In this document: positions 35,430 through 53,080 of the stretch, piece by piece
Layout: every line of letters starts with the position of its first letter
Numbering within the stretch: position 1 is the stretch's first letter
Assembly (NCBI GenBank): GCA_947495915.1
Contig: CANMAW010000004.1
Location: 186,001 to 250,000 of the forward strand
Origin: Maribacter algarum (ex Lu et al. 2025) (nom. illeg.)
GTDB taxonomy: Bacteria > Bacteroidota > Bacteroidia > Flavobacteriales > Flavobacteriaceae
Direction of reading: 5' to 3'
DNA: 64,000 nucleotides
Program-made: the position numbers and the translations under genes
The notes under the pieces: model-generated
Database searches by the model: none
What the model was told of the DNA's origin: nothing
What the model saw: only the letters and a program-made list of their open reading frames with translations

Positions 35430-35445
35430 TACGTATTAATACGTA
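35430..35445. promoter_or_regulatory. TACGTA-N4-TACGTA operator upstream of nasA
   Basis: Perfect 16-bp palindrome TACGTATTAATACGTA, with its near edge 51 bp before the chosen nasA ATG. It is one of seven sites of this form upstream of nitrogen-metabolism genes in the window. The core ACGTA-N4-TACGT has the 5-4-5 spacing of Crp/Fnr-type operators. A weak -7-like box (TACCTTG, minus strand) lies between the site and the gene. Confidence 0.75.
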
Positions 35446-35576
35446 GTTTTAATTTGATAATAGTAACGGTTTTTTTTAATCGTATTCATAATTATCGCCC
35501 TGAAGTTGTACGATAAATGAAACCAAATGTCATTAAAGTTTATGCAAATGCAACTGTGATCACCTCGCTTGACAGG

Positions 35577-37424
35577 CTAATAGTTTTGTTTTACAAAATC
35601 ATTAAACACTTTTTTATGCAGCTCTAAATCTAAATCTGGTGAAAGTGCAACACGAACAATATAATCTTTATCGCCTTCTTTGGTGGTACCTTGGGTAGAA
35701 GTCGCAGGAATCGTCCAATAGCAGCCTTTTAGTTGTCCGTAACTAACACAGAATTTACTTTCATTCGGAATTTCGGTTATCATCAAATTGATTAATTTCA
35801 AATTCAATGATCTTTTATGAGCCTCCTTTTCTTCAACTGAATTTCCTTTTGTGGGTAGGTCTAAAGAAAAAACAGAAGGTGTAAATCCCTCTTCAGCTAA
35901 AGTTTCGGAAACGAAATTGATTTTAGCAGTTGGTAAAGTTTCTTGAATATAGTTAACATAGTCACGTGTATTCACATAAGCCTCCGCAATTCTCTTATTC
36001 ATTGAAGGTAATTGCGCTGCAAGTATTTCCATTTGCAACGCTGTGGCTTCATTATCACAAAGCTTCAAGTGTTGCGCAATTTTAGGCATCAATGCATTTG
36101 CTTTTTTATTCGCCACGCAATAACCAGCAGTGCAACGCCCGCCACTTGGAAATTTCGATCCACTAGTATATGAAATAGTTCTCACATCAGAAAGAATTTC
36201 ATCGTCTCCTAAAAAATGTAGATTCGGGCAAAAAGTTTGATCTAAAATAAAAACAGGATCAATTGCCTTTTCACCACTAGCTGTAGTTCTAACTGCTGAC
36301 AATGCATTTCTAAGTTGAGCCATATCTGGCACCTCTACCCTCGGGTTGGTGGGAATTTCTGCTATGATATACGGTATTGCATCTTTCTTGGCAAGTTCAT
36401 CTAGAACCGCATCAACACTTTGCACCATATCATTCTCGCCATCAACAAGCAAATCAACCACAGCAACATTAGCCACACTAGCAGCTACCCGTCGCGCTTG
36501 GTCATTGGTGCCCCCATAACAGTTTGGTGGCACAACGAATTTTATAGCCTTACCAGGGTGCTTCTCTTGCGCCTCATGAATAAGGCCCATCATAATAGCA
36601 TATTGCATTGACAGACCACTAGACCCTATAACAGCTGTAGTTGCTGCTTCCGTAATCTGTTGAATACTATCTAATACCATTGCTTTATTTGTCTCAGCAC
36701 TATTTTTTGTGGCAGAAGCTGCTGTTTGACCTAAAGCCTGTTCTAAAGCGATTCGACAATTTTCAGGTGTCATCGCAATACTTTCTCTTCGTCTTACATG
36801 CTGAATTTCAGAAGTATAAGAATTACTATCAGCAGTATTTACCATTAAAGTACTTCCCAAATTGGAATTGGTATTGAGGTAAAAATCAACAGCATCAATA
36901 TGTTCAATTTGCGCAAATCGCTGCACGGATGCTATATAAATTGTACTCCCATTAAATTCAGAAATTTCATTAAGACTGCTTATCTGTTGCGCTTCAAAAT
37001 TATACCCATAAACCTGCTTTAACAGATCTACATTAAAAGCTTCTGGTAACGATGTAGTATATAAAATTCGAGTTGGCACGCCATCCATTGCATTCTTTCT
37101 TAGAATTGCAAGTATAGGCATGGTTTGCGATGAAAAGCTGATTACTGCGTCGGCTTGCATGTTATTTAAACTGGCAATATACCATTCAAGAACACATGAC
37201 AGAGGATGCCCCAAACGAATATAATCATATGCCGTAGGTAAACTATCGAGTGATTTGGTATCGACAATTCCTGTTTGGTACAATTTTTCTAAACGATCTA
37301 AAAATTGAGTTTTAGCCAATCGTTCTTCATATATATCAAGTCGATGCGTGGTTAATGTCAACCAACTTTCAGGCATTTGTTCTAAAACTGCTTTCACAAA
37401 TTGAAGCACATTATTTGCTTGCAT
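35577..37424 (-). CDS. Cys/Met-metabolism PLP-dependent enzyme, long form
   Basis: 615-aa protein of the cystathionine gamma-synthase/O-acetylhomoserine sulfhydrylase fold. The PLP lysine lies in SYTSGSKFPSGGRCTAGY; other landmarks are ILDQTFCPN (PLP-ring Asp) and GSSGLSMQYA (phosphate loop). At about 600 residues it is much longer than the usual 380-430 and carries an N-terminal extension of about 200 residues, a layout I associate with fungal-type cystathionine gamma-synthases. Its reaction is likely gamma-replacement on an activated homoserine or a related thiol reaction. No recognisable SAM or other riboswitch was found upstream (37425-37628). Confidence 0.75.
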   Translation of the reverse strand: MQANNVLQFVKAVLEQMPESWLTLTTHRLDIYEERLAKTQFLDRLEKLYQTGIVDTKSLDSLPTAYDYIRLGHPLSCVLEWYIASLNNMQADAVISFSSQTMPILAILRKNAMDGVPTRILYTTSLPEAFNVDLLKQVYGYNFEAQQISSLNEISEFNGSTIYIASVQRFAQIEHIDAVDFYLNTNSNLGSTLMVNTADSNSYTSEIQHVRRRESIAMTPENCRIALEQALGQTAASATKNSAETNKAMVLDSIQQITEAATTAVIGSSGLSMQYAIMMGLIHEAQEKHPGKAIKFVVPPNCYGGTNDQARRVAASVANVAVVDLLVDGENDMVQSVDAVLDELAKKDAIPYIIAEIPTNPRVEVPDMAQLRNALSAVRTTASGEKAIDPVFILDQTFCPNLHFLGDDEILSDVRTISYTSGSKFPSGGRCTAGYCVANKKANALMPKIAQHLKLCDNEATALQMEILAAQLPSMNKRIAEAYVNTRDYVNYIQETLPTAKINFVSETLAEEGFTPSVFSLDLPTKGNSVEEKEAHKRSLNLKLINLMITEIPNESKFCVSYGQLKGCYWTIPATSTQGTTKEGDKDYIVRVALSPDLDLELHKKVFNDFVKQNY

Positions 37425-37628
37425 ATTTACTTTTTCAATTCAAGTTGCAAGATACATCAATTTGATTTTAACCAGTACTCTATACGTTAGGGTTCGGCAC
37501 TAGTAACAGATAACTAACCGTGTATCAATACGAAACCTGAACTGTTAATTAATCCCTAAATCGTCAACCAAGATTAAACCATTGAATTAAACGACGATCT
37601 TATTAGCAATCGAATTAAAACTAAAACA

Positions 37629-38234
37629 ATGAAAAAATATACTATTATAGCATTAAGCGTTTTCATGTTTACAGCTTTCAGTAGTAACATCACTGCTCAA
37701 ACTAGAAACAAAAAGACAAATACAGAAACAACAAGAACTACGACACGTACCACTACAACACGGACGAAGAGAACAACACCTACTCGAGTTTCAAGAACGA
37801 AAGTAGTTTACAAAAAACCACAGACCAAAGTAGTCGCCGTAAGAAGTTTACCGACCAGTAGACGTACCTTAAAGCATAACGGACAAACGTATCATTATGT
37901 GAATAATAAATTTTACCGTTATAATGGTGGGCGATATTTACCAGTAAAACCAGTTTTAGGCTTGCGCATCAGAACCTTACCCATAGGTTTCAGCACTGTG
38001 GTTTTTAGCAACAGAAACTATTATCTAGCTGACGGTGTTTATTACCATCAAATTAACAGTGAATATGAAGTCGTTGAACCTGAAGTTGGTATGATTGTTT
38101 ATGAACTGCCAGATAATTATGAAAAAGTACAAATTGACGGTTTGCAGCTTTATGAATCGAACAATGTGCTTTACGAAAAAGTGCAAGTAGATGGAACAAG
38201 AGCTTACGAAGTAGTAGGTATCATAGGAGATTAA
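37629..38234 (+). CDS. Small secreted protein, DUF6515-like
   Basis: 201 aa with a signal peptide (1-23, ending NITAQ). A basic Thr/Arg-rich low-complexity segment follows (about 26-66). The rest holds two similar beta-rich units: one with tyrosine repeats (YHYVNNKFYRYNGG, then YYLADGVYYHQ) and a tail repeating YEKVQ(I/V)DG. Similar proteins in Bacteroidetes are annotated DUF6515, with no known function; the name is from memory. The gene stands alone on the plus strand and ends at a strong terminator. Confidence 0.75.
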   Translation: MKKYTIIALSVFMFTAFSSNITAQTRNKKTNTETTRTTTRTTTTRTKRTTPTRVSRTKVVYKKPQTKVVAVRSLPTSRRTLKHNGQTYHYVNNKFYRYNGGRYLPVKPVLGLRIRTLPIGFSTVVFSNRNYYLADGVYYHQINSEYEVVEPEVGMIVYELPDNYEKVQIDGLQLYESNNVLYEKVQVDGTRAYEVVGIIGD

Positions 38235-38268
38235 GCGTTCACTCTGAGACTTTTATTGATGTGTAACG

Positions 38269-38328
38269 AGCGCCCCTCTAAATAAAAATAATATGATGTT
38301 TTAGTTTATAGGGGCGCTTGTTTTTTTT
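38269..38328. terminator. Bidirectional intrinsic terminator between convergent genes
   Basis: AGCGCCCCT (38269-38277) pairs perfectly with AGGGGCGCT (38310-38318) and is followed by eight T (38321-38328) on the plus strand. AT-rich sequence in the loop can extend the pairing. It serves the plus-strand small secreted protein gene. It also lies just past the stop of the minus-strand PL7 gene at 38338. Confidence 0.85.
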
Positions 38329-38337
38329 AGCAGTTCA

Positions 38338-39405
38338 TTATTTTGGCGCCGTAGCTTCACCTACTGTTGCATTTTTAAACCATACCTCGGCATAACAACC
38401 ATTAGCATATTGTTTTTCGATATCACCATCATAAACATCCGAACCTGTAGACCAAACCATATTTGTTTTAGGGTCTTTACCATTGGTTTGATTATATGCT
38501 CCTTGTTTGAAATAATTGATTTCACCAGCATAAGCATTTGGCTTTTCGGTGCCATCTCTTCCTATTGGAACAAACATTTGCCGTGTCTGTTCTGGTAAAT
38601 CTGCTTTAGTAATATAGTCTGATTTTAATAGATTTTTGGTGAACGTTTTGGTCTCATGTCCTTCACTTGAAAAGGTCAAATACATAATACCTTTATATAC
38701 GTTGACTTCGTAGCAGAACTCCTCACCCAATGCAATACCGTCAGTTGGTTCTTCAGGATAGTTGTTTGAATCTGACCCTACAACCGACATGTCATAACCC
38801 CAAACCGCTGATGAAAAATCCCATCTACCAGAATTATCTCCTTCGGGATTAATCTCGTAATTCCAAAAAACAGATCCTTTAGTTTGACCGGGAAACTTTT
38901 TATAGAATATTTTTAAAGGCTCGTTTTCATGACCTTCATCACTATGAATTTGCCCGACAACCACCGAATAGGAAGCAGCAACCCGCGCATCTCCTGATGT
39001 AGAAACATGCATCACTTTTAGCGTTCCTGTAAGCTTGCCGCCTGTTTCTGGAATCCAGTGCTTTTTCTCTCCTAATTCTGTTCTGGTATTGCTTGAAGTT
39101 CTAGATGTAATACCAGAATTTGGGGTTTTATAAACTACCCAATCGGTAGTACCATCGTTCTCTACATAAAAGAAATCCTTTTTCTCGTATCCGATTAAAT
39201 TATCTTCTTTGGTACCATCTCCTAAAAGGATTTTAAATTTATCAAAAAAGGGAATCACATCACTCGGGTAGCTCGCTGTCGTGGTAGTTACTTCTTTTTC
39301 CTCCTCTGTTTTTTTAGATTTCTCACCACAACTGGTTAAAACGAAGGCCAGCAACATTAGGGCTACGGTTGATATACGAACGGATAATGATGTTGATTTT
39401 TTCAT
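38338..39405 (-). CDS. PL7-family alginate lyase, lipoprotein
   Basis: 355 aa from ATG at 39405, with a lipoprotein signal (VLTSC, Cys26). Family 7 landmarks are RTEL (Arg108), QIH (Gln152-His154) and YFKQGAYNQ (298-306), giving the Arg/Gln/His/Tyr catalytic set for beta-elimination of alginate. The usual RTELR block ends in Gly112 here in place of the second Arg. A longer frame from TTG at 39450 would run through the palindrome at 39428-39439 and lacks a better signal, so the shorter start is preferred. It is probably anchored to the cell surface or periplasmic face. No other alginate genes are nearby. Confidence 0.9.
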   Translation of the reverse strand: MKKSTSLSVRISTVALMLLAFVLTSCGEKSKKTEEEKEVTTTTASYPSDVIPFFDKFKILLGDGTKEDNLIGYEKKDFFYVENDGTTDWVVYKTPNSGITSRTSSNTRTELGEKKHWIPETGGKLTGTLKVMHVSTSGDARVAASYSVVVGQIHSDEGHENEPLKIFYKKFPGQTKGSVFWNYEINPEGDNSGRWDFSSAVWGYDMSVVGSDSNNYPEEPTDGIALGEEFCYEVNVYKGIMYLTFSSEGHETKTFTKNLLKSDYITKADLPEQTRQMFVPIGRDGTEKPNAYAGEINYFKQGAYNQTNGKDPKTNMVWSTGSDVYDGDIEKQYANGCYAEVWFKNATVGEATAPK

Positions 39406-39427
39406 AGAATTTAACCTTTGTTTTAAA

Positions 39428-39439
39428 TTGGTTAACCAA
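39428..39439. promoter_or_regulatory. Palindromic operator TTGGTTAACCAA upstream of PL7 gene
   Basis: Perfect 12-bp palindrome 22 bp before the PL7 start. With flanks it reads AAATTGGTTAACCAAAAT. This resembles the operator of GntR/FadR-type uronate regulators such as ExuR/UxuR (consensus around TTGGTATACCAA), which suits an alginate lyase. A -7-like TATTTTG overlaps its gene-distal side, a repressor-type position. No cognate regulator gene lies in the window. Confidence 0.55.
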
Positions 39440-39724
39440 AATACAAACAATTGTTTTATTCTAAGAATTCTATGAATTTAAATAAAAAATAGAACAGATT
39501 TTGTTACGAAAAATCTTTAATTGAAAAAATTGGAATCTTGTTCAAACCATGCTCTTTCGATAAAAAAAATTACCCCTAGCCCATTAGATATACCGTGATA
39601 TAAAAAGATTAATTAGGCGATTATTACACATTAGTTCAAAGGATATCAATAAAATTGAAATAGATATTTCAATCACTTTTAGTCTTTATAACTAAAACTC
39701 AAAATACTTCTTATTACTAAAAAT

Positions 39725-40393
39725 CTACACCAAATTAAACTCTTGCGCTTTTTTTGATAAGTCCATCAAATTTTTGACTTCCATTTTTCGCATCAAATTG
39801 AAGCGGTGGGTTTCTACGGTGCGCTTGCTGTTCTGCAGTTTTTCGGAGATTTGTTGGTTGGTGAGCCCTGATAAGACTAGCTCAAGTACTTGAATTTCTT
39901 TGTTTGTAAGATCAAAAGGTTTGCTGGTTCGGTTTTCCACCTTGGCACTTTCCGTAGATTTGGCTTTCGGATTAAGAAGGTTATTTACTAAGACATTTGA
40001 AATGTCACCACTATAGTATTTTCCTCCGTCACGAACGGCATGTATTGCTTTTATAAATTCGGTTTTACCGGTGTCTTTCAATAAATAACCTTTAGCACCA
40101 GCCGCAACAGATTTTAGAATATATTCCTCTGAATCGTGCATGGAGAGTATAATGCACTTTACATCTGGCTGCATGGCACTTAGCTTTTCAACGGCTTCAA
40201 TGCCCGTCATTTTAGGCATTCGAATGTCAATAACCAAAAGTTCAGGTTTTAAGTCTTGTACAAGCGTTATGGCTTCCTGCCCGTCGGCACCTTCACCAAT
40301 TACTTTCAGGTCTTTTTCACTTTCTAAAAGAGCGCGAATACCATCACGCACTAACGAATGGTCATCTACTAAAACAATACTGGTTTGACTCAA
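39725..40393 (-). CDS. NarL/FixJ-family response regulator
   Basis: 222 aa. The receiver domain has the acidic pair Asp10-Asp11 and phosphoacceptor Asp56 (VIDIRMP); Lys in LLKDTGK completes the set. The C-terminal LuxR-type HTH (about 158-215; LTNKEIQVLELVLSGLTNQQISEKL) binds DNA. The start is TTG at 40393, as no ATG is available. It has no kinase beside it; the NarX/PilJ-type sensor kinase at 56688-58526 is the likely partner. Its own promoter carries the nitrogen-regulon palindrome, and it lies just past the nitrate transporter and porin genes. Nitrate/nitrite control is inferred. Confidence 0.88.
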   Translation of the reverse strand: MSQTSIVLVDDHSLVRDGIRALLESEKDLKVIGEGADGQEAITLVQDLKPELLVIDIRMPKMTGIEAVEKLSAMQPDVKCIILSMHDSEEYILKSVAAGAKGYLLKDTGKTEFIKAIHAVRDGGKYYSGDISNVLVNNLLNPKAKSTESAKVENRTSKPFDLTNKEIQVLELVLSGLTNQQISEKLQNSKRTVETHRFNLMRKMEVKNLMDLSKKAQEFNLV

Positions 40394-40406
40394 AATAAAT
40401 CTAAAA

Positions 40407-40430
40407 TAAGTAGTTATACGTACAAAGATA
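40407..40430 (-). promoter_or_regulatory. Promoter of response regulator gene with TACGTA-N4-TACTTA operator
   Basis: On the minus strand an exact Bacteroidetes -7 box TATCTTTG (40423-40430) is followed at once by TACGTATAACTACTTA (40407-40422). This is a match to the nitrogen-regulon palindrome with one G-to-T change in the second half-site. A TTG lies about 20 bp upstream of the -7 box as a candidate -33 element. The operator would cover the transcription start, a position more typical of repression. Confidence 0.65.
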
Positions 40431-40567
40431 GCTAAGCTAAACTAAAGTATCAAGTCTAACCCCAACCCCTATGTTACAGTTGTTAATTACAATTCTAAAT
40501 TTTAAAAAAAGCTACCACAACCTAAATATGGTTATGATAGCTAATCGAAACAAAGCACTTGATTAAC

Positions 40568-41869
40568 TTATTCCTTTGGTTTTGTATTTAGAAATTTTGG
40601 TTTCATGGTCAATTGTACAAAGGCCCAGTTTTGTGTACTTGCGGCATCAACCTCAGTAATACCTTTCAATTCATACATGCCATCAGCAGCGAACATTTGT
40701 GAGTACCCAACGGCAAGACCGTAACCATTGAACTTTTTTGCAAAAACGATATCGAGTTCTGTACCCAATGATTTTTCACCACTTGCTAATTCTTGCTCTC
40801 CACTGAAGTTCAATACTTTCACTAAAAGACTAGAACCTTTACCTAAATTGAACTTGGCACTCGCATGAATATCAGTTAATCCAACAGAATTGGCATGGTT
40901 ACCTACGTAGAAATAATCCATAAAACCGTTGAACTTATGGTTGGTACCGTAAAGCGGGAAAAATGCTTCCGTTTTATCAGTCGTTGATGCATCATTACCA
41001 CTAATGATTTCTGCACCCAGGCCTAAAGCAACTCCTTTAGAAACCTTATAGCTAAGGTCTAATCCTAATAAATAAGCACCACCGACATCTACGCTATTTT
41101 GACGTTCGCCACTTTGTAAATATCCATTAAAAGCTGCACCAAATGCTCCTTTTTTATAATTCAAGTGTGTACCTAAGGTAAATAAATTACTCACTCCGTC
41201 TGCTACAGCAGGGTCTCCAGTAAAGTTTTGAAATCCATTATTCAATAACAAGGCACTAGCAGAAAATGTTTCCCATTGTTGTTTCAAATACAAGTATTGC
41301 ATGCTTTTGTAAGAGAAAAAGCCCGTAGTATTATATGCAGTACCTACCGATTGAAATCCACCAGGGTTTCCTGTTGTCGCGGTAAAATCTTGATTAAAGG
41401 CAAGCCCTAAATCCATCATAAATTTCCCTTTTTTATACTTCAATAAAGCGGCATCATGACTACGTGCTTGCATAGCCCAATCTACCCCACCCAGTATACG
41501 TTGATCGTCATACACTAGCATTTGTCGCCCCAGTTTAGTAGAAAAACCTTCGCCTAATTTAATATCTGCCCATGCCTGAAAAATTGAAAAAGAGTTGTTG
41601 CTATCTTCTGGTTTAAGCTGGCGATTCTCACCCCAAACCATAACATCTTGCATACTCATATAAAATTTAAAAGACTCAAATTGATATCCGGCATTCAATC
41701 GCAATCGAGAAGCAATTGCAAAACCAGGATCTGCGGCATCAGGTATTAAACTACCAAAACCGTTGCGATATTCTGTACGTGGTTTGAATTCGCCATCGAG
41801 AGTAAATTGTGCAGTAGCAAACTGAATCGATAGGACAAATAGGAATATAAAAATGTGTTGTTTTTTCAT
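40568..41869 (-). CDS. Outer-membrane beta-barrel porin, alginate-export-like, at end of nrt operon
   Basis: 433 aa with a signal peptide (1-20, FATAQ). The whole chain is built of alternating amphipathic strands (DGEFKPRTEYRNG, FKFYMSMQDVMVWGEN, GFSTKLGRQMLVYDDQRIL), like the alginate-export/OprD-like porin family. It follows the NrtD gene by 36 bp. In this setting it should let nitrate or nitrite pass the outer membrane, rather than alginate. The alginate lyase gene just downstream has its own promoter and terminator, so a link to it is less likely. Confidence 0.78.
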   Translation of the reverse strand: MKKQHIFIFLFVLSIQFATAQFTLDGEFKPRTEYRNGFGSLIPDAADPGFAIASRLRLNAGYQFESFKFYMSMQDVMVWGENRQLKPEDSNNSFSIFQAWADIKLGEGFSTKLGRQMLVYDDQRILGGVDWAMQARSHDAALLKYKKGKFMMDLGLAFNQDFTATTGNPGGFQSVGTAYNTTGFFSYKSMQYLYLKQQWETFSASALLLNNGFQNFTGDPAVADGVSNLFTLGTHLNYKKGAFGAAFNGYLQSGERQNSVDVGGAYLLGLDLSYKVSKGVALGLGAEIISGNDASTTDKTEAFFPLYGTNHKFNGFMDYFYVGNHANSVGLTDIHASAKFNLGKGSSLLVKVLNFSGEQELASGEKSLGTELDIVFAKKFNGYGLAVGYSQMFAADGMYELKGITEVDAASTQNWAFVQLTMKPKFLNTKPKE

Positions 41870-41905
41870 GATATAACTGTTTAATATGGAGTTAGTTGTT
41901 CTTGT

Positions 41906-42727
41906 TTAATGTTCTAAAAAGTCAATGAGATGTTTTCTGTACGTGTAGTAATCATCATGTTCGAGTACTGATTTTCTTGTTCGTGGGCGCTCAAAATTAA
42001 TATCAAGAATATCTCCGATTTTTGCGCGTGGGCCACTGGTCATCATCACCACACGATCAGCTAAAAATATAGCCTCATCAACATCGTGCGTGATCATCAC
42101 CGCAGTAATTTTTTCTTTGTTCCAAATTTCAATTAAAATATCTTGAAGTTCCCCTCGAGTTAACGAATCAAGCATTCCAAAAGGTTCATCGAGCAATAAT
42201 ACTTTTGGCTTAATAGCGAATGCTCGTGCAATACCTACCCGTTGTTGCATACCTTGAGAAAGTTCTTGCGCTTTTTTATTAAAAGCACCATCAAGACCTA
42301 CCTTATGCAAGTAGTATTTTGCAATATCCTTTCGTTGTGCTTTCGTCGCATGTGAAAAAACTTGATTTACGCCCAGCAGTACATTGTCTAAAGCGGTCAT
42401 CCATGGCATTAAACTAGGTGATTGAAAGATTACGCCCCTATCAGGACCAGGACCTTTCACCGGATTACCTAGCACAGCAATATTGCCCCCAGAAATAGGA
42501 TTCAAACCTGCAATCATAGAAAGCATAGTAGTTTTACCGCAACCAGAATGCCCAATAATGGTTACAAACTCTTCTTTCATGATCTGAAGATTTAGGTCTT
42601 CAAGAACCACATAATCACCTTTTGGTGTGGGGTACACTTTTTTTAATTTCGATAAATCTAACATCACTTTCGAAGGAAAATGGATGCCATTTTCTGTAAT
42701 ATTCTGATCTGCTGTTGCTATACTCAT
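41906..42727 (-). CDS. nrtD: Nitrate ABC transporter ATP-binding protein (NrtD-like)
   Basis: 273-aa ATPase. Walker A is GHSGCGKTT, the signature is [13 protein letters not shown] and Walker B is [12 protein letters not shown], followed by the H-loop ITHDVDEA. The NrtD/SsuB/TauB group is indicated by [18 protein letters not shown]. It lies 15 bp after a second ATPase gene and 36 bp before the porin gene, completing substrate-binding, permease and two ATPase genes in order. It works at the inner membrane as a heterodimer with the other ATPase. Confidence 0.9.
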
Positions 42728-42742
42728 GGTCTTTTTCTTTAA

Positions 42743-43582
42743 TTAGGCTACAAAACTTTTAGGTGCAATATCTGGTAGGGTATACTCCTCTTTACTTACC
42801 GATTTTCGTTCAGCGCCTATGTCCATTAAATATTCAATGATTGCATTTCTAGTTTTTTTATAACTCGGGTTGTCATTCAAAGCCGTTTTATCTCGCGGCC
42901 TTTCAATGTCAATTTTAAATTCAGGACCCAAAGTTGCATTCGGCCCTGGTTTTAAAGGAATTACCCTATCGGCCATATAAATAGCCTCATCTACATCATT
43001 CGTAATTAACAAGGCAGTTCGCTTGTCTTTACTCCAGATATTCAGTATTTCATCTTGTAGATTCCCCCGTGTTAAGGCATCTAACGCCCCTAATGGCTCA
43101 TCCATAATGATCATTTCTGGGTTCATTGCCAGAGCCCTTGCTACTGCCACACGTTGTCGCATTCCCCCAGATAATTCTTTGGGTCTTTTGTTAATTGCCG
43201 GACTCAAACTTACCATTGCTACATAGTCATCTACACGCTTTTTTAAAGCTGCTTTACTTTCCTTAGGAAAAGCCTCTTTTACCGCCATATATACATTCTG
43301 ACCAACCGTTAACCATGGTAAAAGTGAATAATTCTGAAAAATTACACCGCGATCATGACTTGTATCAACCACGGGCTCTCCTTTAAACAAAACCTCACCA
43401 CTGGTAGGTTTTAATAATCCGTTTATCAAATTCACCAACGTAGTTTTTCCGCTTCCTGTAAAGCCCACAATCGCTACAAATTCACCCTCTTCAATTGATA
43501 AGTTGATATTAGAAAGCACTTCTGTTGCGTGCTCGCCCTCTCCATAGGTTTTATAAATATTATTTAGTTCTAAGTATGCCAT
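42743..43582 (-). CDS. nrtC: Nitrate ABC transporter ATP-binding protein (NrtC-like, no receptor domain)
   Basis: 279-aa ATPase with Walker [10 protein letters not shown], signature [16 protein letters not shown] and Walker [13 protein letters not shown]. The H-loop position reads ITNDVDEA, with Asn in place of the usual His. Cyanobacterial NrtC carries an extra C-terminal NrtA-like domain; this one lacks it. The missing H-loop histidine suggests an asymmetric ATPase pair in which only one site hydrolyses efficiently. It is 32 bp after the permease gene. Confidence 0.9.
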
Positions 43583-43614
43583 GTTTTTGTTTTTCTTTGT
43601 TCGATTCTAATTAC

Positions 43615-44709
43615 TTAATCATTCTTATTGAACGATACCATATTCTGCACCGTCAACATTAATCGATCTAATAAGAAACCAATGATACCAATCACAAACA
43701 TGGCTACGATAATTTTCGCATTTGAATCGTTGGCTCCGTTTTGAAATTCTTCCCAAACAAATAATCCTAAACCTTGACTTTGCGCTAATAATTCGATGGC
43801 AATTAATACCATCCAAGCTACTGAAAGGGTAATACGCAAACCTGTAAAAATTAAGGGTAATGATGAAGGTAAAATCACCTTAAACACTTTTTGAAAAGTT
43901 CCTAGTTTCAAAACTTTTGCTACGTTGATATAATCTTTATCAACCGATGCTACCCCCATGGCTGTATTCACAAGAGTCGCCCACATGGCACATAAGCCAA
44001 CACTGATAAATGAAATCACAAAAGCATTATCAGAGCTATCGCCGATATAAAGTGTCTTCACAATCATGAATACCAACAAGTACCAAACTACCGGAGAAAC
44101 GGGCTTAAAAATTTGAATAAACCAGTTGAATGCACTACGCAAAGACGGACTCAAACCAATTACAATTCCGATAGGTACTGCAATTAAGAGTGCTAGTAAA
44201 AAACCAGCGAAAACTGTTTTTATACTCGTTAAAACAATATCAACAAAAGAAGCCCGGCCCGTGTATATAATGGCATCTTTACCTTGAGCAACCAATTTTG
44301 CATTGGTAGTAGCCATTTTTTCAGCGAATGCCGCTTTATCAGCAGTAATCACTTTATGATCAGCAATTAATGATTGTAAAGACCCCCAAACTTGCGACGG
44401 AGAAGGAAGCGTATTTGGTTGACAACTACTCTCACCAGATTCGATACAAGCGCGTTCTGCATCGGCTGCTTCTTGACCACGTTCTGTTAATGCCTTCTCA
44501 ATTTTATACGAAGCCTCTTTATTATAAAGTGCTTTAGAACCCAAATGCCATAAGCCTAAAAAGAGTAAAATCGATACGATAGTAATACCCGCTTTTTTTA
44601 GAGAATTGAATATATCTCCTTTTTGAATTTTAGGGGTTACTTTGGCTAGCAAAGACTTTATAAAAGCTGTGCTCTGCCCTTCTTTTTTTAATGTGATATC
44701 TTGTTCCAT
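43615..44709 (-). CDS. nrtB: Nitrate ABC transporter permease (NrtB-like)
   Basis: 364-aa inner-membrane permease. TM1 lies at about 38-58. A polar periplasmic segment of about 110 residues follows, then the five-helix transport core (about 160-355) with the EAA-type loop (KVFKVILPSSLPLIFTGLRITLSVAW). The inserted periplasmic segment is longer than in cyanobacterial NrtB. The gene is 37 bp after the binding-protein gene and 32 bp before the first ATPase. Substrate assignment rests on the adjacent NrtA-like receptor and the nitrate reductase genes. Confidence 0.9.
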   Translation of the reverse strand: MEQDITLKKEGQSTAFIKSLLAKVTPKIQKGDIFNSLKKAGITIVSILLFLGLWHLGSKALYNKEASYKIEKALTERGQEAADAERACIESGESSCQPNTLPSPSQVWGSLQSLIADHKVITADKAAFAEKMATTNAKLVAQGKDAIIYTGRASFVDIVLTSIKTVFAGFLLALLIAVPIGIVIGLSPSLRSAFNWFIQIFKPVSPVVWYLLVFMIVKTLYIGDSSDNAFVISFISVGLCAMWATLVNTAMGVASVDKDYINVAKVLKLGTFQKVFKVILPSSLPLIFTGLRITLSVAWMVLIAIELLAQSQGLGLFVWEEFQNGANDSNAKIIVAMFVIGIIGFLLDRLMLTVQNMVSFNKND

Positions 44710-44746: not shown

Positions 44747-46129
44747 TTAGTCTTTGTTTCCTATGGAGAAGCTATTGATATACCCAATTGGGTCTTTAGC
44801 ATCATAAGAATTTCCATCAATAAAGTCAGTGGTTGCAGCTTTATAACCGTCTGTTGCAGGAATATCTGTAGCAGGAATTTGTCCTTCAGCAACTAATAAA
44901 TCTGCCGCTTTTTTCCAGATGTCTGGTCTGTAAATATCTTTGATGGTTTCGCCGTACCATTCCGCGGTTTTCTTTTCAGGAATTTGACCCCATCTGCGCA
45001 TTTGTGTTAAGAACCAAATACCATCAGAATAGAATGGGTAGGTTGCATTATACTTATAGAATACGTTGAAGTCAGGCATTTCACGCTTGTCACCTTTTTC
45101 AAACTCGAAAGTACCAGTCATTGAATTTGCCAATACTTCTACCGGAGCGCCAACGTATTGAGACATAGAAAGAATCTCAACAGCTTCTTGTCTGTTACTT
45201 GGCTCATCTAACCATTTACCTGCACGAATTAGAGCTTTGGTAACTGCGATTGCCGTATTCGGATTATCGTCAACAAATTTCTTTGTCATTACAAATACTT
45301 TTTCAGGATTGTTTTTCCAGATATCATAATTTGTAGTCACCGGAACACCAATTCCTTTAAATACCGCTTGTTGATTCCATGGCTCACCAACACAGTACCC
45401 GTAGATTGTACCTGACTCTAAAGTAGCTGGCATTTGCGGCGGAGGCGTTACAGACAATAATACTTCAGCATCAATTTGACCTTGAACATTGTCAGCAGTA
45501 TACATACCTGGGTGAATACCAGCAGCAGCTAACCAATAGCGAATTTCATAGTTGTGTGTTGAAACAGGAAATACCATTCCCATTTTGAAAGGCTTACCGC
45601 TATTTTTATATTCAGTAATTACTGGTTTTAAAGCTTCTGCTTTTATAGGATGCACTGGCTTACCTTCTGCATCTTTCGGAACATTTGGTTTCATTTTTGA
45701 CCAAACATCATTAGAAACTGTAATGCCGTTTCCATTTAAATCCATAGAAAAAGGAGTTACCAGTTGCGCTTGTCTACCAAAACCCGCACCTGCTGCAATT
45801 GGTTGACCAGCTAACATATGTGAACCATCTAACTGACCATCAATAACACGATCTAGAACGTTTTTCCAATTCGATTGCGCTTCAACAGAAACGAAAAGTC
45901 CCTCATCTTCAAAAAACCCTTTTTCTTTAGCAATTGCTAAAGGAGCCATATCGGTTAGTTTTATGAAACCAAAAGTTAATTGCGGTTTTTCAATATCTAA
46001 TTGTTTCGTTTTTGAAGCAACTGCTTCCGTAGCAGCTTCGGTTGTCTTTTTTGCATCTTTTCCTCCACATGCCACAATTAGTAGGGCGAATGCTGAAAGC
46101 AAAGAAACTTTTGTAATAATGGTTTTCAT
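44747..46129 (-). CDS. nrtA: Nitrate-binding lipoprotein (NrtA-like)
   Basis: 460 aa with a lipoprotein signal (LLIVACGG, Cys21). The binding fold of the NrtA/CmpA family is recognisable from [28 protein letters not shown] and the segments [15 protein letters not shown] and [12 protein letters not shown]. It should bind nitrate or nitrite in the periplasm and hand it to the NrtBCD complex. It is first in the five-gene run and follows a promoter with two elements of the nitrogen-regulon palindrome. Bicarbonate binding (CmpA) is the structural alternative but does not fit the context. Confidence 0.92.
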
Positions 46130-46152
46130 ATGTATGTGATTTTAATAGTAAC

Positions 46153-46189
46153 TACGTATTTATACTTACTTAAGGCAAATGTATACGTA
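46153..46189 (-). promoter_or_regulatory. nrtA promoter with TACGTA/TACTTA operator
   Basis: An exact -7 box TACATTTG (minus strand; 46176-46183) is flanked by TACGTA upstream (46184-46189). Downstream lies the 16-bp site TACGTATTTATACTTA (46153-46168 as read on plus), identical to the site before nirB at 53059-53074. Two more TACGTA elements occur farther upstream (46305-46310 and 46325-46330). The full site lies around the expected transcription start. Confidence 0.7.
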
Positions 46190-46353
46190 ATTTTCAATCA
46201 GTTTCATGCAATCAATCATGATGAGATAGCTTTTTACTACATGAAAAAAACTGCTATATCACAGGTTTAATTAATAAATAATTGATTATTAGAATATTAC
46301 AAAATACGTACGTTATTAAATTGCTACGTATTTTAATTCACTTTAATGACACC

Positions 46354-47076: not shown

Positions 47077-47082
47077 ATTGGA

Positions 47083-48111: not shown

Positions 48112-48118
48112 GTGTAGT

Positions 48119-48598: not shown

Positions 48599-48652
48599 TG
48601 AATCTTATTTGAAGCTAGATTTATTTATTACACTAAAGGGTTTAAATAGTAT

Positions 48653-49480
48653 TTACTTTCTTGATACTAAAGTCTTCATTGTCTCGTAAGAAGATAATTT
48701 TCTTACGCTATCAAGAAACACCTCTGCAGTAGGCAAATAATTACCTTCTTCTGGCCATTTATCACCAATGGTAGGCTTTTCACTACTTTCGAAAGCCGCT
48801 ATTTCATTTAAATACTCGACATAAATATCTACGGTGCCTTTAGCATATGCATCTAACACATCCATTGTTGCACCATAAGTCAGCGAATCTTTAGGATATT
48901 GCCACGTAGTCGCCCCCATTACATCACCCAAAACCCAATCATCTTTTGCTGTTTGAGAATGTTCATTGTGGCAACTTACACAGGCACCTGCGCTAGCTAA
49001 ATCAGCAAACATGGCGGTATGTAATTGCTGCTCTTCATCATAAAAGAATTGCGGCTCTTGATCTACTTTTATTTTACTAAACAATTCAGCTTGTTGCCCT
49101 TCAAATTTATTGGCATTATTAATAGGAAAATCTGAACCTAAATATAAGCCCAGCGGCACCGGACCTTTAGTTATACTTGTTGCAACGCCTCTTAAAAACA
49201 AAGCTGGTAAGGGCCCTGCCTCCACATCATCTTTTCTCCAGTCTTCATCGAATTTCATTCCTTGTAATTTGCCTTTACCAACGATTGCCTTGGTGTACAA
49301 AGTTCTTGTGACATCATTCTCTTTTGATACCATTTCAAGTACTTCATCAACTGCAAATACATTGGCTTCACCCGCGGCTACACCAGTTTTTTCTTCAGGA
49401 ACTCCTCCACATGAAATCATTATAAAGCTTAGCACTAATATGAGAATGATTAATACTGGGTAATTTTCTATTTTTCGCAT
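48653..49480 (-). CDS. Haem-c lipoprotein with Tll0287-like (DUF3365) domain
   Basis: 275 aa with a lipoprotein signal (MISC, Cys24). The Tll0287-like/DUF3365 fold is suggested by LPALFLRGVATSI, FPINNANKFEG-AELF and the single haem motif CVSCH (167-171). Such domains bind one c-type haem in a PAS-like fold and act in redox sensing or electron transfer. The gene lies 26 bp after the globin gene and 54 bp before the cytochrome b gene, inside the same run. It should face the periplasm. Confidence 0.78.
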   Translation of the reverse strand: MRKIENYPVLIILILVLSFIMISCGGVPEEKTGVAAGEANVFAVDEVLEMVSKENDVTRTLYTKAIVGKGKLQGMKFDEDWRKDDVEAGPLPALFLRGVATSITKGPVPLGLYLGSDFPINNANKFEGQQAELFSKIKVDQEPQFFYDEEQQLHTAMFADLASAGACVSCHNEHSQTAKDDWVLGDVMGATTWQYPKDSLTYGATMDVLDAYAKGTVDIYVEYLNEIAAFESSEKPTIGDKWPEEGNYLPTAEVFLDSVRKLSSYETMKTLVSRK

Positions 49481-49506
49481 AGTTACATATATTTTAAGAT
49501 TAGTGT

Positions 49507-49920
49507 TTAATAAGATGCTTTAATCATAACTGAAGACATGGTACCGTATACATCCGTCCAAGCTTTTTTTACATCAGGAGTAAAATCATCTCCTAGTCCA
49601 GCCTCAAGAGTACTAAGTAAAGCAGCACCAACGGTATCATAGTGAGCGGGTTTAACCTTATATTCTACATGACGCTTGCCTAAGTTTTCGAGTACAGGAA
49701 TCAGCATATCTAAATTATTTAAACTGGCAACTGCACTGGCCAACATGCTCATTAGCTTATTTCCTTGGGTTGCCATTGCTGCGTCACTAGCAGGAAAAAG
49801 CGCTTTTAAGGAAGGGTCGAATTCAAAGAGTTTACTGTAAAAAATTTCAGCAGCTTGCGGAGCAATTGGTTTAACTTTTTCAAAGGACGATTGTACGAGG
49901 TCGATAGTGGTCTGTTCCAT
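49507..49920 (-). CDS. Single-domain bacterial haemoglobin (Vgb/flavohaemoglobin-type globin)
   Basis: 137-aa globin similar to the haem domain of flavohaemoglobins and to Vitreoscilla haemoglobin: IAPQAAEIFYSKLFEFDPSLKALF at the start, then the proximal histidine in LGKRHVEYKVKPAHYDTVG. It lacks its own reductase domain. Functions known for this group are oxygen binding and NO dioxygenation to nitrate. It is first in a run with a flavin reductase that could re-reduce it. A perfect regulon palindrome lies 41-56 bp upstream of the ATG. Confidence 0.92.
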   Translation of the reverse strand: MEQTTIDLVQSSFEKVKPIAPQAAEIFYSKLFEFDPSLKALFPASDAAMATQGNKLMSMLASAVASLNNLDMLIPVLENLGKRHVEYKVKPAHYDTVGAALLSTLEAGLGDDFTPDVKKAWTDVYGTMSSVMIKASY

Positions 49921-49960
49921 ATTTAATTATTCTAGTTTAATTAAAACTTTAATCAAAAAG

Positions 49961-49994
49961 TAAGTACATATACTTACTTTGAGTTACAAATATA
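49961..49994 (-). promoter_or_regulatory. Globin-operon promoter with TAAGTA-N4-TACTTA operator
   Basis: On the minus strand an exact -7 box TATATTTG (49987-49994) is followed 10 bp later by the perfect palindrome TAAGTACATATACTTA (49961-49976). A single TACGTA half-site lies just upstream of the -7 box at 50005-50010. Its changes from the TACGTA form are symmetrical in both arms, which argues for a real dimer-binding site. Location downstream of the -7 box suggests control by repression. Confidence 0.7.
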
Positions 49995-50150
49995 GAATGT
50001 AGACTACGTATGTCTTATGGGATATCACAGTAGATGAAGTTCTTTTTCAGCATATAAAATGCTGCGTAATAACATGTTTAAACATGCAATCAGCTATACT
50101 TACTAAAAAAACTATTGAATTTAAAAATGAAGATATAAACTAACAATTAA

Positions 50151-50906
50151 CTAGCTATCGAGATAGAAATTATGTTCGGAAATCTCTTTGCGAAGCTGTT
50201 CAAGATGCACTATACCAATGCGTTTTCCTTTAGTTGTTATTAGGTTTTCTTTTTTCAGGGCAGAAAAAACTCTGATGACCTGCTCTTCTGTTGTACCCGC
50301 ATAATCAGCATATTCACGTCGACTTAAAATAATAGAAATAAAGCCATTACTGAGTCCAAATTTTCTATTGATATAAAGCAAGGTGTCAATAACACGTTCG
50401 CGAACTGTCATCTGAGAAAGTGATTTTACTTTCGCTTCACTCTTATTTAATTCATTGGCATAAAACAGCATCAAATCATAAGTAAACGTAGGCTCTTTAT
50501 GCAAAACTTCTTGCAAACTTTCTTTAGAGAAATAACACAGGGTACAATCTTCAATAGCAATTGCGCTTATGGTATAGAACTCTTCGGTGCCAAAACCACG
50601 GTGCCCAATAATTTCACCTTCTTTAGCAAAACGAACGATCTGTTCTTTACCATGAAGTCCTGTTCTTAATACCTTTACAACACCTTCAAGCACAAAAAAG
50701 AGCCCGGTAACAGGTGCTCCTTCCATGATAAATTGTTGTCCTTTTTTACAACGTATTTGTTTTCGCTGACTTGCGAAATTCGCTACAATAGCAGAACCTA
50801 CATTTTTATTTATAAGGCAGCGCTTATTTGTACAAATAGCGCATGCGCTATTCAACAAATTCTGATTTGGAGTACTGACATTATATTTATTAGAGGCTGA
50901 AATCAT
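50151..50906 (-). CDS. Crp/Fnr-family regulator with FNR-like cysteines
   Basis: 251 aa from ATG at 50906, chosen over the GTG at 50915 because AGGTGAT stands just upstream. The cyclic-nucleotide-type beta-roll spans about 45-150, the long dimer helix follows, and the winged HTH covers about 175-230 (SRREYADYAGTTEEQVIRVFSALK). Cysteines at 22, 25 and 30 (C-x2-C-x4-C) plus 121/124 lie near the positions of the [4Fe-4S] ligands of E. coli FNR (20, 23, 29, 122). The recognition helix has E-x3-R as in FNR but Ile where FNR has Ser. Likely an oxygen- or NO-responsive regulator of the nitrogen genes and of itself. Confidence 0.87.
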   Translation of the reverse strand: MISASNKYNVSTPNQNLLNSACAICTNKRCLINKNVGSAIVANFASQRKQIRCKKGQQFIMEGAPVTGLFFVLEGVVKVLRTGLHGKEQIVRFAKEGEIIGHRGFGTEEFYTISAIAIEDCTLCYFSKESLQEVLHKEPTFTYDLMLFYANELNKSEAKVKSLSQMTVRERVIDTLLYINRKFGLSNGFISIILSRREYADYAGTTEEQVIRVFSALKKENLITTKGKRIGIVHLEQLRKEISEHNFYLDS

Positions 50907-50915
50907 GTCTATCAC

Positions 50916-51212
50916 CTAATCTTTAGTACCAATTAATACAAATTCTTTTCTAGAATCTAACTCCATGTTCATCAAAATTTTCCATTGTTTACAACACAAC
51001 AAAGCCATTAACACAAACAAGCACTTACTCAAAAATAAAGGCACTTCAACTACTTTTTCAAAATCAAAATACAACTTCATAAAGAAAAGAAATACAACGA
51101 TATTCAAACCAATGTGTATCACCATAGCCTTATGCAAGAATACTTTACCATTTACCCTCATGGAATAAAACATATGTATATCTGCTAATGATTTAAATGC
51201 TATAGCCTTCAT
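50916..51212 (-). CDS. Small two-helix membrane protein, unknown
   Basis: 98 aa, not recognised. Two hydrophobic segments (about 28-48 and 58-75) are separated by a short acidic loop (FDFEKVVEV). The latter segment ends with CLFVLMALLCC, so three cysteines lie in or beside the membrane. A histidine in the HIGLN segment could bind haem but no second conserved ligand is clear. The stop immediately precedes the Crp/Fnr gene's GTG, so the two are in one transcript behind the triple TACGTA cluster. A membrane accessory to the regulator is possible but speculative. Confidence 0.6.
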   Translation of the reverse strand: MKAIAFKSLADIHMFYSMRVNGKVFLHKAMVIHIGLNIVVFLFFMKLYFDFEKVVEVPLFLSKCLFVLMALLCCKQWKILMNMELDSRKEFVLIGTKD

Positions 51213-51236
51213 AACCCTTGAGTTGATCAGCTAAGC

Positions 51237-51271
51237 TACGTATTAATATACGTATTTTTACGTATTAAGTA
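51237..51271 (-). promoter_or_regulatory. Triple TACGTA operator cluster upstream of 98-aa protein/Crp genes
   Basis: Three TACGTA elements at 51237-51242, 51249-51254 and 51259-51264, followed by TAAGTA at 51266-51271. The second and third form a perfect site TACGTATTTTTACGTA (51249-51264). A TACTTTTA -7-like box lies on the far side (minus strand, 51270-51277). This is the densest cluster in the window and stands before the regulator's own transcript, as expected for autoregulation. Confidence 0.72.
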
Positions 51272-51508
51272 AAAGTAATCTTGAAATTCACCCCGATTTA
51301 CGAGGTTCACGAAAGCACTGGTATATAAATTAGGATATCAGAATATAAGCTGCTTGATTTTAAGAATTTCAAAAAAGAGAAGCAATAAGAAATTACCAAA
51401 ACACCTAAATTTTGATTAAACTAATAGAAGCATACGTAGGTCGGTTGCAAAAGCTATATTCGAATATCAATATGTAAAACCTTGTTATTTCAGAACCTTT
51501 CAAATAGC

Positions 51509-51541
51509 AAAAAAGCCCGATGTTAACTTCGAGCTTTTTTT
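51509..51541. terminator. Intrinsic terminator downstream of truncated globin gene
   Basis: AAAAAAGCCCGA and TCGAGCTTTTTT form a 12-bp stem with one G-T-type mismatch and an 8-nt loop, followed by T on either strand. It lies about 60 bp past the stop of the minus-strand truncated globin gene at 51603 and would terminate that transcript. Confidence 0.7.
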
Positions 51542-51602
51542 GAACATCATAAACAAAATAATTAATATAACAATCTTAAAATATCTAAAACTTATCTACC
51601 AT

Positions 51603-51968
51603 TTACGCAGAAACAATATCACCTTTAACACCCCTTGCAATTACAACAACTTCATCTATAAGGTTTTGCGGCACATTCAATTCATCAAGGGCACTTATCA
51701 AATGCGAAATAACGGCCTCAAAATGATCTTCATTAATATTCATTCGTGCATGAACTCTCTTCATACTTTTACCAGTATAACCCATTGGACAGCCAAAGGC
51801 ATAAGCTAAAAATGCCTTCTGTTTTCTAGCCTGGGTTTTAATTCTGGTTTTAGCAAAAAAATGATTAATACTATCATCAGCAAGAACTTTAGAATAAAAA
51901 ATATCTACAGTAGCATCTACTGCATCCATCCCTCCTATTCTTTCAAATAATGTTTCTTCTGACTCCAT
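51603..51968 (-). CDS. Truncated haemoglobin (group I-like)
   Basis: 121 aa. The 2-on-2 globin pattern is seen in LFERIGGMDAVDATVDIFYSKVLADDSINHFF and the proximal histidine region MKRVHARMNINEDHF. The length is typical. Truncated globins bind oxygen or NO and often protect against NO made during nitrate/nitrite reduction. The gene has its own promoter with a perfect palindrome 64-79 bp upstream of the ATG and a terminator downstream, so it is a single-gene unit. It is the second globin within 2.1 kb. Confidence 0.92.
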   Translation of the reverse strand: MESEETLFERIGGMDAVDATVDIFYSKVLADDSINHFFAKTRIKTQARKQKAFLAYAFGCPMGYTGKSMKRVHARMNINEDHFEAVISHLISALDELNVPQNLIDEVVVIARGVKGDIVSA

Positions 51969-52031
51969 TACAATTGCATTAAATTTCGTTTAAAAGGAAC
52001 TTAGTCTTTCCGATTTGAAACTATGAAATTT

Positions 52032-52047
52032 TACGTAGTTCTACGTA
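52032..52047. promoter_or_regulatory. TACGTA-N4-TACGTA operator upstream of truncated globin gene
   Basis: Perfect half-sites: TACGTAGTTCTACGTA, 64 bp before the globin ATG. A TAGTTTC -7-like box (minus strand, about 52017-52024) lies between the site and the gene, so here the site is upstream of the promoter core, unlike at nrtA and the other globin gene. Confidence 0.7.
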
Positions 52048-52210
52048 ATAAAATGCTGATTATTAGAGTGAAAGTATCATTTTTATGAGGATGTCAATTT
52101 TAAGGAATCATAACTAAGAGTACTGAAAAAAAACAAACCTTATTTTATCAAATCTAAATTTCATTATTAAACGAAAACTCTATAATCTAACTTGCAGCAA
52201 CCTTATCTTA

Positions 52211-52978
52211 TTATAAGGAATGTAATACACGTTGCACTTCTTCCTCAAAAAAGAGCGGGTGTTCTGCTACCACATTTCCGATAATTATGATTCCCGGTAC
52301 TGTTTCTTGTATGGAGTTTTTATATTCATGAATACCTTGCAAAGTACCCACCACACAACTCTCATTCTTTAGAGTACCATTCTGTATGACCGCTACAGGT
52401 GTACTCGAGACTCTATATTTACTGACCTCATCAACAATCTGCACCAACTTTCGCACTCCCATTAAAATTACCATCGTTGCAGAAGATTGTGAAGCGTATT
52501 TAAGGTCTTCAGAAAAAGAACCATCGCGTTTGGTTGCCGTCATTACCCAAAAGCTACTGCTAACTCCCCTACGCGTCATTGGTATGCCTTGACTAGCCGG
52601 TACAGCCAACGCACTCGAAATTCCTGGGACAACAGAAACAGGTATGCTGAAAGACTCTACATAGGCTATTTCTTCATGAGCTCGGCCAAAAACAAAGGGA
52701 TCACCACCTTTTAAGCGAACTACATGACCATATTTAAAAGCATTTTTTACAATGAGTTCATTAATATCATTTTGAGAAAAAGAATGTTGATTACAACGCT
52801 TTCCTACGTATATTTTCGGTATAGCCTTATCTATTAAGGATAAAAGCTCAGCACTTACCAAAGCGTCATACAAAATTACATTAGCTTCTTGCAATCTTCT
52901 CATTCCCCTTATTGTAACAAGATCTCCACTTCCCGGGCCAGCGCCCACTAAACTAACTTTAGGTTCATTTTGACTCAT
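52211..52978 (-). CDS. cobA: Uroporphyrinogen-III C-methyltransferase
   Basis: 255 aa from ATG at 52978; an upstream GTG frame adds residues with no conservation. The SUMT signature VSLVGAGPGSGDLVTIRG is at the N-terminus, followed by YVGKRCNQHSFSQ, VVRLKGGDPFVFGRA and PVSVVPGISSALA (SAM-binding elements). It makes precorrin-2 from uroporphyrinogen III with two SAM. With the dehydrogenase/ferrochelatase at 58516-59100 it forms a split siroheme pathway that supplies NirB. It is transcribed divergently from nirB over a shared 126-bp region with the regulon operator. Confidence 0.95.
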   Translation of the reverse strand: MSQNEPKVSLVGAGPGSGDLVTIRGMRRLQEANVILYDALVSAELLSLIDKAIPKIYVGKRCNQHSFSQNDINELIVKNAFKYGHVVRLKGGDPFVFGRAHEEIAYVESFSIPVSVVPGISSALAVPASQGIPMTRRGVSSSFWVMTATKRDGSFSEDLKYASQSSATMVILMGVRKLVQIVDEVSKYRVSSTPVAVIQNGTLKNESCVVGTLQGIHEYKNSIQETVPGIIIIGNVVAEHPLFFEEEVQRVLHSL

Positions 52979-53058
52979 CATCTTTTCAATTTTTGATATT
53001 AAGATTATCAAATCAACAACAAGAGTACGTATTTTTTTTGAAATAATCACTTCAAAAC

Positions 53059-53080
53059 TACGTATTTATACTTATTTTTG
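53059..53080 (+). promoter_or_regulatory. nirB promoter with TACGTA-N4-TACTTA operator
   Basis: TACGTATTTATACTTA (53059-53074) overlaps the start of an exact -7 box TATTTTTG (53073-53080) on the plus strand, 25 bp before the nirB ATG. The 16-mer is identical to that at nrtA. A further TACGTA at 53026-53031 is nearer to the divergent cobA gene, so one region may control both directions. Confidence 0.72.

Follow-up and report, generated by a model that had tools for sequence, protein, structure and literature searches.

Which protein reads the 16-bp inverted repeat TA(C/A)GTA-N4-TAC(G/T)TA that recurs seven times among the nitrogen genes of Maribacter algarum, and does its binding switch those genes on or off? 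The window considered here is the whole stretch analysed, 64,000 nucleotides of contig CANMAW010000004.1 (assembly GCA_947495915.1, positions 186,001 to 250,000). Comparison with related genomes makes it highly probable that the palindrome is the operator of a Bacteroidetes-type narHK-narRR two-component system, bound by the response regulator encoded at 39725-40393 and serving a nitrate regulon; this confidence excludes the sign of regulation, which is weighed separately below. The seven sites follow, with the number of loci, among 120 relative loci and the window itself, in which the gene has a site no more than 250 bp upstream.

35430..35445, unstranded: predicted operator at nasA, TACGTATTAATACGTA, a full 16-bp palindrome; nasA 24/42.
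40407..40422, unstranded: predicted operator directly upstream of the response regulator gene, exact match; 25/53.
46153..46168, unstranded: predicted operator at nrtA, exact match; 51/51.
49961..49976, unstranded: predicted operator at the globin operon, exact match; 10/13.
51249..51264, unstranded: predicted operator at the 98-aa gene and the Crp/FNR-type gene; 1/1 (window only) and 2/44.
52032..52047, unstranded: palindrome at the truncated globin gene (trHb), centre GTTC, not conserved, the least supported of the seven; 1/8 (the window itself).
53059..53074, unstranded: predicted operator between nirB and cobA, overlapping the predicted nirB -7 box; nirB 117/117.

A preliminary description of this DNA had picked out these 16-mers, and all seven match the scanned pattern, TAMGTA-N4-TACKTA, exactly. 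Its count of four perfect palindromes is borne out by palindromic arms at 35430, 49961, 51249, and 52032; the nrtA and nirB sites are, as it reported, identical 16-mers; and the one close match that it noticed elsewhere, at 16818-16833, is the sole one-mismatch match in the window. Allowing up to two mismatches gives 25 matches in the window; 100 shuffles averaged 11.62 (SD 3.05), and every one stayed below 25. The whole genome (4,174,141 bases, 35 contigs) contains nine exact sites versus three for a control, the reversed pattern. Seven of the nine fall inside this 17.6 kb (binomial chance of at least seven of nine approximately 9e-16), and the remaining two (L001, L002) sit within open reading frames (ORFs).

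The relatives comprised 40 loci around kinase orthologues and 80 more (from Maribacter, Zobellia, Arenibacter, Cellulophaga, Muricauda, and others). The upstream counts cover genes with at least 260 bp of DNA before the start and an aligned N-terminus (start no later than residue 25) and, for ten named multi-copy queries, matches of at least 40% identity. All 40 of the first relative loci have a site no more than 150 bp before the nirB start; within 250 bp, one was found at nirB in 117/117 and at nrtA in 51/51 loci, with none for the reversed control, though the loci overlap in part (L012 and L061, for example, are the same contig) and the nirB cases are not all independent. The site upstream of cobA, found in 65/65 loci, lies in the region that this gene has in common with nirB. 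Conservation is uneven at the other genes: globin, nasA, and the response regulator retain a site in 10/13, 24/42, and 25/53 loci, respectively, the Crp/FNR-type gene in 2/44, and the positives for trHb (1/8) and the 98-aa gene (1/1) are the window itself. Genes presumed to be operon-internal have no site within 250 bp upstream (nirD 0/120, DUF4202 0/119, histidine kinase 0/119, p43615 0/47). Over 2.41 Mb of relative loci, with the third base left free, 360 sites were found versus two for the reversed control. The enrichment upstream of nas, nir, nrt, and globin genes that the preliminary description had wanted checked in this genome and its relatives is present, most completely at nirB and nrtA; the sites are conserved in orthologous promoters, and matches are scarce elsewhere in the genome. 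Chance origin of the palindromes was rejected on the combined grounds of the shuffles, the reversed control, the clustering, and this conservation.

Three regulatory proteins of the cluster bear on the identity of the binder:

39725..40393, minus strand: NarL/FixJ-type response regulator (narRR), the proposed binder, with Response_reg and GerE domains.
56688..58526, plus strand: NarX/NarQ-like kinase (narHK), a putative nitrate sensor, with PilJ, PAS, HisKA_3, and HATPase domains.
50151..50906, minus strand: Crp/FNR-type regulator, a probable target and not the binder.

The first two have nitrate genes nearby (nirBD, nasA, nrtABC), and their distribution was surveyed in a family sample of 149 genomes and a phylum sample of 296. 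NirB is found in 42 genomes of the family sample, and exactly these 42 have the kinase (E up to 6.2e-89) and the regulator (E up to 1.5e-64); weaker hits in five other genomes for the kinase and three for the regulator reflect kinase-domain or paralogous-regulator matches. An exact site lies upstream of nirB in all 42 (the 40 first loci, G174 as L149, and the window). NirB was found in 22 genomes of the phylum sample, 19 of them new. Ten of the 19 have orthologues of both kinase and regulator, and nine of these ten have exact sites; in the tenth, G349, the site carries two mismatches and the 250 bp contain TACGTA six times. In the nine new genomes without an orthologous pair, the best match upstream of nirB has two to four mismatches, and neither an exact or one-mismatch site nor any TACGTA was found within 250 bp. 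Overall, 51 of 52 nirB genomes with the pair, and none of nine without an orthologous pair, have an exact site; this count of 61 combines the 42 family genomes with the 19 new ones, and G050 and the 80 added loci stand outside it. G050, from another family, showed six sites versus none for the control and was then found to have a regulator orthologue, with a site 33 bp before nirB; in its congener G036, which has no sites, no regulator orthologue was found.

The preliminary description had instead read the repeat as an FNR-like operator, ACGTA-N4-TACGT, and proposed the Crp/FNR-type protein 50151-50906 as its binder. The 5-4-5 spacing fits this, as do the position of crp inside the cluster, in an operon with its own site, and the FNR-like cysteine set of its orthologues (an N-terminal CxxCx3-6C in 46/47). 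The half-sites, however, are ACGTA or AAGTA, not TTGAT, and the 16-bp frame equally matches the 7-2-7 arrangement of NarL and the 16-bp FixJ site, neither of which had been considered. A Crp orthologue (E up to 6.0e-79) is present in 32 of the 42 family genomes with the site; in the other ten, no orthologue was found at E 1e-40 although the site is retained (G009, G018, G166, G137, G161, G171, G130, G148, G035, and G029); more distant Crp-family candidates are present there (17 in G009, 13 in G018). Conversely, three of the nine genomes without an orthologous pair (loci L140, L142, L144) have a Crp relative near nirB, lack an orthologous response regulator, and lack the site, and in L150, L161, and L166 the crp gene is itself directly preceded by a site. 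Because the site tracks the pair across genomes, and Crp relatives occur without it, this comparative evidence indicates that the site follows the regulator 39725-40393 and not the Crp protein. Crp/FNR as binder was rejected on the orthologue-less genomes that keep the site and the Crp loci that lack it, and we regard it as very improbable.

Co-occurrence is also compatible with a different co-inherited transcription factor binding the site, in which case narRR would owe its association to linkage with the nir genes. None of NirB, kinase, and regulator occurs without the other two in the family sample, and linkage explains part of the pattern. Against this stand the site at narRR itself, the lack of TACGTA in G360 and G418, whose regulators have diverged helices, the FixJ-like helix together with its FixJ-site match, and the covariation of half-site base 3 with that helix, the last two of which are described below; on balance we consider such a factor unlikely.

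Several observations, in addition to this constant association, weigh against narRR as the binder. Among the nine site-less genomes, G360 and G418 carry next to nirB a kinase and a regulator that have diverged, the regulators with changed recognition helices (RTVDNHRANMM and NTVANQRASII), and the two-mismatch match in G360 is no worse than that in G349, save for the absent TACGTA. Within the genus of the window, G003 has narRR and yet its sites are no commoner than the control (5 and 5). In the same genus, G008, with the regulator, has five sites (control 1), and of two genomes in which the regulator was not found, G002 has three (control 2) and G004 three (control 5). Additionally, the pattern is enriched in some genomes where narRR was not found (8 sites versus 0 for the control in G033, 9 versus 1 in G034, 6 versus 2 in G020, 7 versus 3 in G012, and 5 versus 3 in G016). 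These copies, covered in part through loci L170-L185, mostly have different centres (such as GAAC, GGTC, and ACGT); several lie near another NarL/FixJ-type regulator with the helix RT(V/I)EKH, and others are upstream of unrelated genes or within ORFs. TACGTA-N4-TACGTA lies by the 3' end of the RT(V/I)EKH regulator in L179, L183, L184, L187, L188, and L189, and the associated palindromes may represent a sister operator class. The truncated-globin 16-mer of the window is also present in G016, G020, and G033; this site is unconserved and its centre is of the kind seen when narRR was not found, and we doubt that it belongs to the regulon.

The sequence of the regulator offers a second line of evidence. 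Its best solved relative over the full length is E. coli NarL; for the helix-turn-helix (HTH) region only, EsrB and SsrB are the top solved relatives and FixJ is third. The recognition helix reads RTVETHRFNLMRKM in the window regulator and RTVEVHRANVMAKM in FixJ (1x3u), and RTxExHRFN is present in 61/61 regulator orthologues (>44% identity and 200 aa). The FixJ motif obtained by systematic evolution of ligands by exponential enrichment (SELEX) is GTAMGTAG, and its 16-bp fixK site is TAAGTAATTTCCCTTA (PMC4999443); of the 12 positions of the present consensus, the fixK site agrees with 10. The third base of the half-site is C in 126/162 cases with the helix E-T-H and in 67/204 with E-V-H, in counts for which, as for the helix motif, identical contexts were not collapsed. 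Locus GC fails to account for this covariation, but it is phylogenetically confounded, falling mostly into two clades with some genomes counted twice, and as covariation with one helix residue we treat it as supporting evidence only. The heptamers bound by E. coli NarL are inverted and separated by two bases, a 7-2-7 arrangement in a 16-bp frame (PMC7419079). The inverted repeat of the 16-mer fits this frame, with T at heptamer position 7 in 538/762 half-sites. The NarL heptamer is TACYYMT, and the sites do not match it, having G at position 4 in all seven window copies; the NCBIfam cut-offs for NarL, NarP, NarX, and NarQ were not reached.

In the system envisaged, the kinase 56688-58526 would sense nitrate or nitrite through its PilJ/NarX-like domain, as family membership suggests, and a dimer of 39725-40393 would bind TA(C/A)GTA-N4-TAC(G/T)TA, each half-site being contacted by one LuxR-type HTH. 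Co-occurrence, helix similarity, and covariation together point to binding in the 16-bp frame of NarL with FixJ-like base specificity. In the kinase, PilJ matches at 2.8e-13, and Pfam at E 0.001 shows only PilJ, PAS, HisKA_3, and HATPase models, with no HAMP or GAF domain found at that threshold. A GRQR box, which we liken to the P-box of NarX nitrate sensors, is present in at least 92 of 131 kinase ORFs of the relative loci, and the window kinase carries the P-box-like sequence VINVAGRQRAFSQ.

The regulon would comprise nirBD-narHK, cobA, nasA, nrtABC, narRR, globin, and the Crp/FNR-type gene, and in relatives also narK and perhaps moeA. Its remaining members in the window are:

53105..55609, plus strand: nirB, predicted target; NCBIfam NirB, above cut-off.
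55664..56044, plus strand: nirD, 3' of nirB; NCBIfam NirD, above cut-off.
52211..53050, minus strand: cobA (uroporphyrinogen-III methyltransferase), above cut-off; shares the nirB site.
31851..35384, minus strand: nasA fused to a NirB-like NAD(P)H-reductase region in one 1177-aa ORF, predicted target.
44747..46129, minus strand: nrtA, predicted target, followed by an ntrB-like gene (43615-44709) and ATP-binding genes (42743-43582 and 41906-42727).
49507..49920, minus strand: globin, predicted target.

The regulator gene's own site at 40407..40422, already counted in favor of narRR as binder, probably reflects autoregulation. Some of the remaining sites of the relative loci, when read forward, form 14 site-strand combinations in 13 loci; ten precede a major facilitator superfamily (MFS) protein of 463-478 aa, and the other four precede a 493-aa MFS protein, an alginate-export-like protein, a response regulator, and cobA. 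Two of the MFS proteins (400 residues each scanned) match the NarK family with 307.6 and 170.8 bits, below the cut-off of 311.7. Outside the kinase locus (five genomes, 20 stretches), sites precede crp, globin, and nrtA (L150, L161, L166), as well as MFS genes (L155, L160), moeA (L164), and glutamine synthetase (L152). Other sites in these genomes are within ORFs (L156, L159, L168) or by unrelated genes, and because of such placements, and because the reversed control finds two to six per genome, single cases outside the locus are weak. Downstream of site 3026 in L158 is a 275-aa PilJ-only protein; it has two GKQRMLSQ boxes and may perhaps bind nitrate on its own. In L167 and L169, TACGTAACCTTACGTA recurs three times or TACGTAACGTTACGTA twice, the copies having similar flanks, which probably marks a family of intergenic repeats.

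Where the sites lie relative to the promoters bears on the sign of regulation. The flavobacterial -7 box, TAnnTTTG, spans -12 to -5 (PMC9723704), and a sequence that fits it overlaps the end of the nirB site:

53073..53080, plus strand: predicted nirB -7 element, TATTTTTG, fitting TAnnTTTG at -12 to -5.

With identical nirB promoter contexts collapsed to 108 distinct ones, 104 have a TAnn(T/A)TTG box whose TA coincides with the final TA of the palindrome, which predicts a site at approximately -26 to -11. At nrtA, the box starts 14-16 bases before the site in 28/46 cases (predicted site start approximately +4), and in the nine globin contexts it starts 18 (six) or 10 (three) bases before (predicted start approximately +7 or -2). 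In 16/25 narRR cases, the distance from the start of the site downstream to that of the box is 22-25 bases, which predicts a site at approximately -35 to -20. These positions suit a repressor: with the site on the predicted -7 box at nirB, near -35 to -20 at narRR, and at or just past the predicted start at nrtA and globin, a bound regulator would most likely keep RNA polymerase out. It would occupy the promoter while nitrate is absent and release it when nitrate is present; we lean toward this sign, repression lifted by nitrate.

Not all of the promoter evidence agrees. TTG at the expected -33 is nearly absent (3 of 104 nirB and 1 of 28 nrtA promoters); the nirB site lies approximately 12 bp further upstream, near one helical turn, in L024, L028, L031, and L037; and E. 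coli NarL responds to nitrate via phosphorylation and can activate (PMC7419079). Should nitrate increase phosphorylation, as it does in E. coli, and should binding require the phosphorylated form, repression would be physiologically senseless, which leaves an inverted signal or activation as the options. These points favor an alternative with the same binder, in which phosphorylated NarRR activates on nitrate from an unusual core-promoter position, replacing the missing -33 element. At nirB, the site and the predicted -7 box share a TA in nearly all contexts, as given above, and the -7-like box upstream of the site at nrtA (28/46) and globin (9/9) is ill-suited to a classical activator; we regard activation as a serious but less than even possibility. 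A fuller version of the derepression scheme, less likely than not, can be offered tentatively: the regulator would sit on the -7 box or just past the start, with its operator fused to a sigma-A promoter, and would leave on nitrate owing to the inverted output of the HAMP-less kinase; a cysteine-bearing FNR-type target would complete a FixLJ-FixK-like cascade for nitrate assimilation in Bacteroidota.

The same promoter geometry speaks to whether the palindromes could be RNA hairpins or terminators and not DNA operators. TACGTA palindromes do occur in terminator-like hairpins with T runs, at nrtA -198 in L088 and -200 in L104. The conserved sites, by contrast, lie close upstream of start codons; the nirB site overlaps the predicted -7 box and so would be absent from the nirB transcript; and no longer stem is kept beyond the 16-mer. 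The hairpin reading was rejected on this overlap and on the absence of a longer conserved stem, and its probability appears negligible. The L088 and L104 hairpin palindromes, about 200 bp upstream of nrtA, are a source of false positives.

Other genes of the cluster deserve brief mention. A DUF4202 gene (56066-56656) lies between nirD and the kinase, and a relative was counted 119 times in the 120 loci plus window. An alginate-export-like outer-membrane protein (40568-41869) follows the nrt genes and recurs in the clusters of some relatives; it is a candidate nitrate porin. At 59488-60594, a receiver domain is fused to a family-2 glycosyltransferase. In the Crp/FNR-type protein 50151-50906, the N-terminal CxxCx3-6C of 46/47 orthologues is accompanied by a later cysteine (loose pattern) in 43/47, and this FNR-like set suggests an Fe-S sensor of O2 or NO.

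The preliminary description had called the palindromes an undescribed operator and regulon. The conservation of orthologous promoters, the scarcity of matches elsewhere, and the literature, in which a search of open-licence papers found no operator description for narHK/narRR, uphold that part, and operator and regulon look new; the two-component pair is not, its genes having already been named narHK and narRR (PMC8199190). The role of nitrate-sensing kinases across organisms, and signal transfer by the GAF-less Bacteroidetes kinases, are described there as still open (PMC8199190). An operator upstream of nirB in 51/52 pair genomes provides a testable target list and a reporter promoter, and the helix residue (T or V) versus the base (C or A) provides a candidate specificity code. 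Nitrate regulons may become readable from sequence alone, as happened for G050.

Among known systems, the closest is narHK/narRR itself, whose Bacteroidetes kinases form a class without HAMP and GAF (PMC8199190). The window pair shares with it the NarX-like sensor domain, the presence of PAS, the lack of any HAMP or GAF found, and the placement of kinase and regulator by nitrate genes, with Joostella marina among the published examples; it differs in that the source names the genes but gives no operator or regulon, the words "operator" and "TAC" having no hits in its main text (PMC8199190). The FNR/CRP-type operators (FNR, DNR, HcpR) share a palindrome readable with 4-bp spacing but have another half-site, and here a Crp-type protein is dispensable for site conservation. 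With NarXL/NarQP of E. coli the system has in common a PilJ-type nitrate kinase, a NarL-type regulator, and 16-bp inverted heptamers, whereas the half-site is TA(C/A)GTA instead of TACYYMT and the position is in the core promoter. FixLJ-FixK of rhizobia shares the RTVExHRxN helix, a fixK site that starts with TAAGTA and ends with CTTA, a SELEX half-site containing TAMGTA, and a Crp/Fnr-family gene among the targets. It differs in its second half-site, CCCTTA versus TAC(G/T)TA here, and in its heme O2 sensor, in place of which the present system has a nitrate-type sensor domain and directs its regulator to nitrate assimilation genes.

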